A stretch of DNA of 64,000 nt from an uncultured Desulfovibrionaceae bacterium (lineage in GTDB: Bacteria; Desulfobacterota; Desulfovibrionia; Desulfovibrionales; Desulfovibrionaceae): the NCBI GenBank assembly GCA_944324045.1, contig CALUUT010000049.1, forward strand, positions 1 to 64,000. Reading direction: 5' to 3'. This document shows, piece after piece, positions 56,956-58,156 of this stretch. Under the pieces are notes generated by a model. That model ran no database searches and had not been told where the DNA came from. It saw nothing but the letters and a program-made list of their open reading frames with translations. Positions within the stretch are counted from its first letter, which is position 1, and every line of letters begins with the position of its first letter. The translations under genes and the position numbers were made by a program.

Positions 56956-57459
56956 ATGTACATCTTAAAGCGTTTTGGGCTTATGTTTGCGTTGATGTTC
57001 GTACTTGCCGCGGGTTTCGGCTGTAGCTCCAAGACCGTGGACACAGGCACCGTGCCCCCGGAAGAAACCCCGGTGGCCACAGATGAGCTGGAAGCCGCTG
57101 AAAAGAACGCCATTGCGACCATCACCGACGGAAAAGTGTATTTTGCTTTTGACCGTTACGATATCGCCCCTGAATACAAGGCGATGCTGAACGAAAAGGC
57201 TGAACTGCTCAAGCAGTTCCCGAACCTGTTCGTCAGAATCGAAGGCAACTGCGACGACCGCGGCACTCAGGAATACAACCTGGCCCTTGGCGAACGCCGC
57301 GCCCGCGCCGTCTATGAATACCTCCTGGCCCTTGGCGTGCCGGCCGACCAGATGGACACCATCAGCTTCGGCAAGGAACGCCCCGCCGTGCTTGGCAACA
57401 ATGAAGAAGCCTGGGCGCAGAACCGGCGCGATGAATTTGTCGTGACTGTCAAAAACTAA
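56956..57459 (+). CDS. pal: Peptidoglycan-associated lipoprotein Pal
   Basis: 167 residues. Signal and lipobox LAAGFGC at residue 23 predict an outer-membrane lipoprotein. The OmpA-like peptidoglycan-binding domain has VYFAFDRYDIAPEYKAMLNE, VRIEGNCDDRGTQEYNLALG and ERRARAVYEYLLALGV with ISFGKERPAV and NRRDEFVV. AGGAGGAAGAG precedes the ATG. It closes the tol operon and has its own promoter and terminator. Confidence 0.96.
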   Translation: MYILKRFGLMFALMFVLAAGFGCSSKTVDTGTVPPEETPVATDELEAAEKNAIATITDGKVYFAFDRYDIAPEYKAMLNEKAELLKQFPNLFVRIEGNCDDRGTQEYNLALGERRARAVYEYLLALGVPADQMDTISFGKERPAVLGNNEEAWAQNRRDEFVVTVKN

Positions 57460-57480
57460 AACAGATCCGCAAGCTTTTTT

Positions 57481-57514
57481 AAGCGTCCCGCTTATGGCGG
57501 GACGCTTTTTTATT
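57481..57514 (+). terminator. rho-independent terminator of tol-pal
   Basis: AAGCGTCCCGC / GCGGGACGCTT stem (11 bp) with a 5-base loop and a T-run, about 20 bases past the pal stop. Confidence 0.93.
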
Positions 57515-57539
57515 TCCCTTTTATCCAACGCGCCGTAAC

Positions 57540-57815
57540 TGGAATTTTTGCATTTCCGCCTTTTGTGTGCCAGCAGACGATACGGCGGCGGAGCATGCCG
57601 TGTCAGTCTGTGGAGAGATAGCGAAACCTTACGGGAACAGGTGGCTGGTCTGTACCCGCAAAATTCCCACGTGGGAATATTTGCGGCTAAACCTGCGCCT
57701 TGTTCCTCTTATGCAGTCTCGTTGCAGCAGGAAAGCAAGCTTAAAGGACACAATCGCCAGATTGCCTTTCGCTGGGAATCCCCCAACGCGAGAAGGGGGT
57801 GGATGCCAATTTCCA
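57540..57815 (+). mobile_element. Probable IS200/IS605-family right-end remnant with omegaRNA-like hairpin
   Basis: GGGAATCCCCC (57774-57784), a 10-base loop, GGGGGT (57795-57800) and GGATGCCAA (57801-57809) match what I know of the right end of IS200/IS605-IS1341 elements, GAATCCCC-loop-GGGG-GGATGTCAA, which is also the 3' scaffold of the TnpB omegaRNA. Upstream, a frame from about 57540 reads WNFCISAFCVPADDTAAEHA and then VSVCGEIAKPYG, possibly the tail of tnpB. A 14-bp imperfect stem (CCGCAAAATTCCCA / TGGGAATATTTGCGG) is at about 57658-57688. The transposase body is missing; the pal terminator borders the remnant directly. Confidence 0.42.
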
Positions 57816-57856
57816 TCCCTGCAAACTAAGGACGGCCCTTTCAAGGCCGCGTTGCA

Positions 57857-58156
57857 TTATGTCAGAAAAAACCGGAACAACGCCGCGGCGGCCATGCCGA
57901 TAAGCACCGTAGGCAGCATGGGAAGCCGAAGAGCCGCAATCAGGGTTGCCGCAAGGGCCAGCATGTCCGCGAGCTCTCCGGAAACAACGTTTGGCGCAAG
58001 AAGCGAGACCAGAACGCAACCAGGCGCGACACGCAGGACGGACATGAGCCGCGGACTCAGGCGTCTGTTTCTAAGCGCCGCAAAACCGGCTATCCGGGTA
58101 AGATAGGTGACCGACGCCATGCACAGCGCCGTCAGGGCGTTAGACCAGGCGAGCAT
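57857..58156 (-). CDS. azlD: AzlD-type branched-chain amino acid exporter subunit
   Basis: 99 residues, three or four membrane helices (ALCMASVTYLTRIAGFAALR, LSVRV-like APGCVLVSLLAPNVV, ALAATLIAALRLPMLPTVLI). AzlD is the small partner of AzlC in the LIV-E exporter family. It overlaps azlC by 17 bases, the usual arrangement. Confidence 0.85.
   Translation of the reverse strand: MLAWSNALTALCMASVTYLTRIAGFAALRNRRLSPRLMSVLRVAPGCVLVSLLAPNVVSGELADMLALAATLIAALRLPMLPTVLIGMAAAALFRFFLT

Follow-up and report, generated by a model that had tools for sequence, protein, structure and literature searches.

A probable non-autonomous IS200/IS605 element with a long-armed TnpB omegaRNA scaffold, present as a decayed copy in a Desulfovibrionaceae genome

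Analysis of a 64,000-nucleotide stretch of contig CALUUT010000049.1 from an uncultured Desulfovibrionaceae bacterium (the window) revealed a 285 bp element at positions 57525-57809, adjoining the pal gene, which is very probably a decayed non-autonomous IS200/IS605 element (PATE) composed of transposon ends and a long-armed TnpB omegaRNA scaffold. On sequence comparison its ends and scaffold share homology with their counterparts in autonomous tnpA-tnpB elements, and copies of the element occur at unrelated sites. An earlier note had read positions 57540-57815 as a solitary omegaRNA scaffold; these limits were nearly right, the element starting at about 57525 and ending at 57809.

The pal gene ends in an intrinsic-terminator-like hairpin (57481-57507, + strand) immediately outside the element, and a spacer of 12 bases separates this stem from TTTAT (57520-57524, + strand), the target and presumed TAM to the left of the element, recognised from the left-flank motif and from the L098 joint described below. 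Alignment with sister copies identified a left-end stub CCAACGCGCCGTAA (57525-57538, + strand) and the GGAATTTTTGC block (57540-57560, + strand), the latter common to the left end of autonomous elements. The omegaRNA scaffold would span 57584-57809 on the + strand, its start being inferred and its 3' limit being the right end. Within it, covariation and hand mapping from the alignment place stem 1 at 57586-57600 (57586-57590 pairing with 57596-57600), and the same mapping places a pseudoknot between the stem 1 loop (57593-57595) and 57804-57806. Stem 2 and the long arm occupy 57604-57734, where the arm covariance model R1 gives a match of 78.4 bits (E 4e-18). The right end (57776-57809, + strand) comprises the guide tetranucleotide GAAT (57776-57779), a hairpin whose stem 57780-57784 pairs with 57795-57799, and the cleavage site CCAA, with roles as in IS608 (PMC5934647); GGATGCCAA terminates at 57809. 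The IS605-type right-end hairpin postulated in the earlier note, with the motif GAATCCCCC...GGGGG TGGATGCCAA, was located here, and the guide it had predicted from 57810 onward fits this right end exactly, the would-be 16-nt guide TTTCCATCCCTGCAAA lying in the right flank at 57810-57825 (+ strand). The RNA of 57538-57818 folds on the + strand at -111 kcal/mol, compared with a shuffle mean of -90.8 (sd 5.0; z -4.0), and none of the 200 shuffles was as low; the minus strand likewise folds beyond its shuffles (z -3.2). Just past the guide, a terminator-like hairpin on the minus strand (57832-57850) probably serves the convergent gene at 57857-58156, which we take to be azlD-like.

Aligned copies of the element mostly start after TTTATC. 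The better kept ones have subterminal hairpins at both ends, the left one of the type CCTCTCCC..GGGGGAGG, flanked by two copies of GCGCCGTAA or similar, and followed by GGAATTTTTGCC, the structured core and then GGGAATCCCCC..GGGGGAGGATGTCAA. The typical size is about 300-350 bp, nine copies with clear ends spanning 298-349 bp when measured from the first base beyond TTTAT through TCAA. The window copy keeps the right hairpin alone and has a single GCGCCGTAA, as if the left hairpin had been deleted between GCGCCGTAA repeats; the cleavage-site TCAA reads CCAA, and its branch in the tree of copies is long (0.21).

The left end was located by script in 27 out of 36 copies, of which 18 are preceded by TTATC and nine differ. 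Insertion after TTTAT without target duplication is documented by one case, L098, in which the element (1222-1571) lies inside a PDDEXK_9 gene. With TTTAT joined directly to the base that follows TCAA, a single reading frame is restored; its terminal part matches PF08011 (residues 209-314, spanning the joint at 300), and the frame aligns gap-free at the joint to two homologues from genome G106. Joining at TTTATC instead loses the conserved end. Four copies in the relative G002 (L090, L013, L014 and L097) are preceded by TGCTCT, not TTTATC, and have a GAGC..ATTT-like sequence farther to the left; they are perhaps nested in another repeat or inserted at a different target. Regarding transcription, in the second sub-group many copies carry, by eye, TTGCC(T/C) followed after about 17 by CATACT or similar, and the GGAATTTTTGC block might be the source of a -35, reading TTGCCT in many relatives and TTGCAT in the window. 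Copies of the window's own genus lack a good -10, and promoter scoring of the + strand of the window element gave no match, so a promoter common to all copies stays a guess.

G000, the genome from which the window comes (2.55 Mb, 117 contigs), contains six copies including that of the window, in different contexts and with divergent sequences. The other five are 78-83% identical to the window copy (E 9e-54 to 8e-75 with 57500-57870 as query), a repetition well outside what chance would give; a seventh row of the search is a palindrome internal to the window copy and not an extra copy. Since all six fall on one side of a tree branch with support 99/98, the element appears to travel without tnpA and tnpB. 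What the earlier note had called a remnant of an IS200/IS605 element does have an IS605-type end, but it is most likely a copy of such a travelling element and not the leftover of a decayed full insertion sequence. Two of 38 further relatives contain the element: G002 with 11 rows (eight long, two partial and one of 32 bases) and G011 with one. The eight copies of G002, ungrouped rows not counted, likewise fall on one side of a branch, and this grouping of copies by genome suggests amplification within lineages. A search of related genomes, as proposed in the earlier note, thus found short copies, which occur in 19 of the 288 family genomes and 7 of the 44 genera when at most two candidates are scored per genome.

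An exact-pattern scan of a GTDB-based collection, with a pattern of 25 bases that misses copies differing in it, gave 30 stretches, by title 19 from Desulfovibrio sp., six from Desulfovibrionaceae, two from 'Deltaproteobacteria', one from Desulfobulbus (L102, with an arm of 83 nt) and two from Synergistota. Both 'Deltaproteobacteria' stretches come from one MAG, and one of them (L080) has the same sequence as L029, a locus of a Desulfovibrionaceae family genome. The Synergistota stretches are L105, which is not labelled as a MAG and has ends visible by eye, and L092, which holds the core alone. Sheep or goat rumen is named in 10 of the 30 titles; several other isolates presumably come from termite gut, judging from their codes. 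Phage and plasmid collections gave no match to the element, nor did the exact-pattern scan of viral contigs.

About 80 nt at the left and 100 nt at the right of the element match both ends of L051, L055, L059 and L066, and L057 shares the left end by sequence match and the right end by motif. Divergent tnpA and tnpB frames lie between the shared ends in L055 and L059, Pfam confirming the TnpA of the former and the TnpB of the latter. The 3' end of the autonomous tnpB reads GGCGGCAGGGCATGCCGTGTCAGCCTGTGGAG...GAAGCAGGAACCCGCC and is followed by the right end; by eye, the autonomous scaffold is that of the short elements, but with a short hairpin replacing the long arm. The proposal that the right end doubles as a TnpB guide scaffold is borne out by this homology, which covers the 3' end of tnpB together with the right end in autonomous elements from sister genera, and similarity to IS605 right ends is evident, both ends of the element matching those of autonomous relatives.

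The TnpB domain PF07282 was detected in 39 of the 288 family genomes at E 0.001 (30 above the Pfam cut-off), and gave no match in G000, G002 or G011. Two Y1 transposase loci were identified in G000, each broken into pieces. At one of them, C45, the left end survives together with pieces of tnpA and TnpB residues 6-56, the latter interrupted by one stop; this remnant of about 51 residues was all that came of the suggestion that tnpB be sought elsewhere in the genome, and the 117-contig assembly yielded neither an intact TnpA nor an intact TnpB. Three partial tnpB matches were found in G002 and none in G011, while the carrier G106 has 13 TnpB rows, all partial, and in G214 an intact tnpB element (L059) stands alongside two short elements (L028 and L048). 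Around the short elements themselves, TnpB sequence occurs in one of 48 loci (L033, at the edge), these loci measuring 1.8-8 kb each and a few including only part of the element. Carriers have TnpB in 8 of 19 cases vs 31 of 269 for non-carriers (Fisher p 0.0014), a count that includes matches below the Pfam cut-off and a probability that is not independent of kinship, as carrier status and TnpB are each clustered within genera.

Base pairing of the scaffold was followed in 36 copies, obtained from 39 selected copies, with 18 duplicate locus ids dropped, by excluding three incomplete ones. In stem 1, the pseudoknot, stem 2, the stem 3 base and the right-end hairpin taken together, 91.6% of cells are paired, and 33 cells show two-sided changes compared with 9.8 in shuffled and 3-9 in slid controls. 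The pseudoknot by itself has 91.4% of cells paired, three of its four pairs being formed in the window copy. There are compensatory changes in stem 1, the pseudoknot, stem 2 and the right-end hairpin; the stem 3 base has zero two-sided changes, and as many as 12 copies fail to pair there. Pair 97-215 is broken in 12 of 36.

The lone 3' hairpin scaffold of the earlier note is present, but as part of a whole scaffold whose arm exceeds that of the compared tnpB-linked scaffolds by about 60-80 nt. The arm is about 130 nt long in short elements vs 48-73 nt in the eight tnpB-linked scaffolds matching the arm model, where end-to-end matches cover 48 bases (L051, L061, L066, L070, L114 and L117) or 72-73 bases (L052 and L056). 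No long arm was found in 30 fetched tnpB loci, which are fewer than all places listed and some of which contain a partial gene; most of them, including L055, L057 and L059, gave no match at E 0.01. Model R1 was trained on 17 arms of one sub-group, drawn from family genomes, from the Synergistales locus L105 and from MAGs of Desulfovibrio, some of which have titles naming sheep or goat rumen; the window copy was outside the training set. The model detected 39 strong full arms in 76 sources, the window copy included, after the removal from 56 rows of four reverse-strand palindromic matches, five tnpB-linked arms and eight partial or odd ones. In these 39 copies 89.4% of cells are paired and 13 of the 34 pairs show two-sided changes, in 34 cells, compared with 6.3 pairs and 11.4 cells in shuffles and 7-15 cells in slid controls; the alignment is fitted to the model, and pairs 37-117 and 64-86 together account for 18 of the 34 cells. 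Pairing fails in 8-14 copies at 12-137, 13-135, 31-123, 37-117, 51-105 and 64-86 (for 13-135, at the arm base, in 12 of 39), and many invariant columns sit in the arm. A wider count over all 56 rows (24 of 34 pairs, 80 cells) was discarded for possible inflation of double changes. The RNA fold, long arm included, is kept by compensatory changes, and the arm covariation could have been inherited from an unsampled autonomous long-arm parent.

Individual arms vary. That of L083 (7937-8000) is much shorter, and in L104 (4830-4930) the arm is swapped for another palindromic sequence. The arms of L028 (1565-1692) and L089 (2985-3114) contain GGTTCGAAYCC, which in our view resembles a tRNA T-arm; TTCGNA is kept in many other copies, and the sequence may be a T-loop motif.

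For the element family, service in trans by TnpA and TnpB is probable, as far as can be judged from sequence. TnpA of autonomous relatives would move the short element; in lineages holding TnpB, the element transcript, running into flanking DNA, would guide TnpB to the empty donor site, and repair from the sister copy after the cut would restore the element. Conservation of scaffold and arm in tnpB-less elements is what trans use of both proteins predicts. Such use is not general today, since 11 of the 19 carrier genomes, several of them incomplete, have no TnpB domain and the G106 rows are all partial. The use of a guide in trans, raised in the earlier note, is plausible for the family but poor for G000, where no intact TnpB was found. 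In that genome the window guide matches nowhere else with 0 or 1 mismatch; besides its own site there are three sites with 2 mismatches and 52 with 3 (56 rows vs 12 for the reversed control). A second target is not claimed, as there is no 1-mismatch site.

More tentatively, and with somewhat less than an even chance of being correct, guide-only transposons with a long-arm guide RNA, and perhaps their own promoter, may parasitise the TnpA of autonomous relatives for movement and their TnpB for copy-back, and may have spread among Desulfovibrionaceae and also to Synergistota. If true, a guide RNA alone would be a transposon cargo worth keeping, a situation expected on the path from transposon-bound guides to free-standing tracrRNA and crRNA. 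The natural long-arm TnpB scaffolds would be usable for structure and editing work, and they constitute a covarying RNA family with no Rfam 15 match in the window and six related loci. No earlier report of guide-only IS605 elements was recognised in the available text of the best literature matches listed. Work by Meers in 2023 is said possibly to mention PATEs with an omegaRNA, and the idea is therefore not claimed to be unpublished.

The element might instead be plain debris, the internal-deletion product of an IS605 element with a functionless scaffold seen because right ends include the scaffold. As an account of the whole finding this is possible, though doubtful. PATEs arising through core deletion at direct repeats are known (PMC3119063), and the window copy, which sits on a long branch, lacks its left hairpin, shows a mutation in the cleavage site and resides in a genome where intact TnpA and TnpB were not found. 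However, internal deletion of the compared autonomous elements cannot yield 60-80 nt of extra arm, and this arm has many invariant columns and covaries. Debris is thus likely as a description of the window copy's present state, and less likely for the family. The simplest reading of the window copy is most likely that of a fossil, because the left-end hairpin is lost, TCAA has become CCAA and only broken tnpA and a tnpB remnant were found in the genome; with both partner genes found only broken there, it is most likely inert, or at most transcribed still.

It is unlikely that some copies were co-opted by the host as a regulatory RNA independent of TnpB, although L092 (2809-2960, minus strand, a Synergistaceae MAG) is suggestive: this long-arm scaffold has no visible transposon ends, has the promoter-like TTGCTT-17-TATACT upstream (by eye) and is followed immediately by a 271-aa reading frame with AAGGAGG. 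This is one case, whereas the copies in the window's genome stand in different contexts and diverge, and the window guide has no second near-exact site. An omegaRNA of IscB/IsrB (HEARO) would also be a structured RNA without a reading frame, and HEARO RNAs are likewise borne by IS200/605 elements; but neither RF02033 nor RRXRR gave a match in G000, G002 or G011, in a search where both controls were also silent, and direct homology to tnpB 3' ends decides in favour of TnpB, making this assignment very improbable. A structured RNA of an unrelated kind, for example a riboswitch or 6S RNA, would account for the strong fold and has next to no probability, given the transposon ends and multiple copies. 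In addition, cmscan against Rfam 15 at the gathering threshold gave no match in the window and six related loci, and relaxing the limit to E 5 gave nine weak matches, every one of which overlaps the pal terminator stretch 57450-57567.

The preferred reading, a non-autonomous element with an omegaRNA scaffold, has parallels in the PATEs described in Haloquadratum (PMC3119063) and Halanaerobium (PMC7290912). Like the present element, these are short and geneless, with IS605-type terminal palindromes, no target duplication and core deletions at direct repeats; the PATEs in the available text of both reports have fused ends or ends only, whereas here the omegaRNA scaffold is kept and an arm added. 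The ends of IS608, CR TCAA and GR GAAT, are those of most element copies, but its CL is TTAC vs TTTAT here (PMC5934647). RAGATH-18 of IS607 elements is also a TnpB guide scaffold; 64% of these RNAs (10,258 of 16,029) adjoin an IS607 TnpB according to the available text of PMC11061315, so that many would not stand beside one. The present element has no Rfam match at gathering.

A further comparison is with ISDra2. Its reRNA corresponds to the 3' end of tnpB and the right end, extended by about 16 nt of flanking DNA, and repair could restore the element once TnpB has cut the donor joint (PMC8612924). The omegaRNA of ISDra2 has a flexible stem 3b, and the pseudoknot formed with its 3' end is stacked on stem 1 (PMC10097598). 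The architecture of the element fits this RNA, sharing the pseudoknot between the stem 1 loop and the 3' end, stems 2 and 3, the right-end hairpin, with loop UUUA in ISDra2 and TTTA in many element copies, and a guide that would come from the right flank. The scaffold measures 116 nt in ISDra2 (PMC8612924, PMC10097598) vs about 226 nt in the element, a length not strange in itself since processed omegaRNAs are reported at 79-466 nt (PMC10278001). What distinguishes the element from ISDra2, as the latter is described in these sources, is a scaffold that stands apart from any tnpB and carries a long arm in the place of stem 3.
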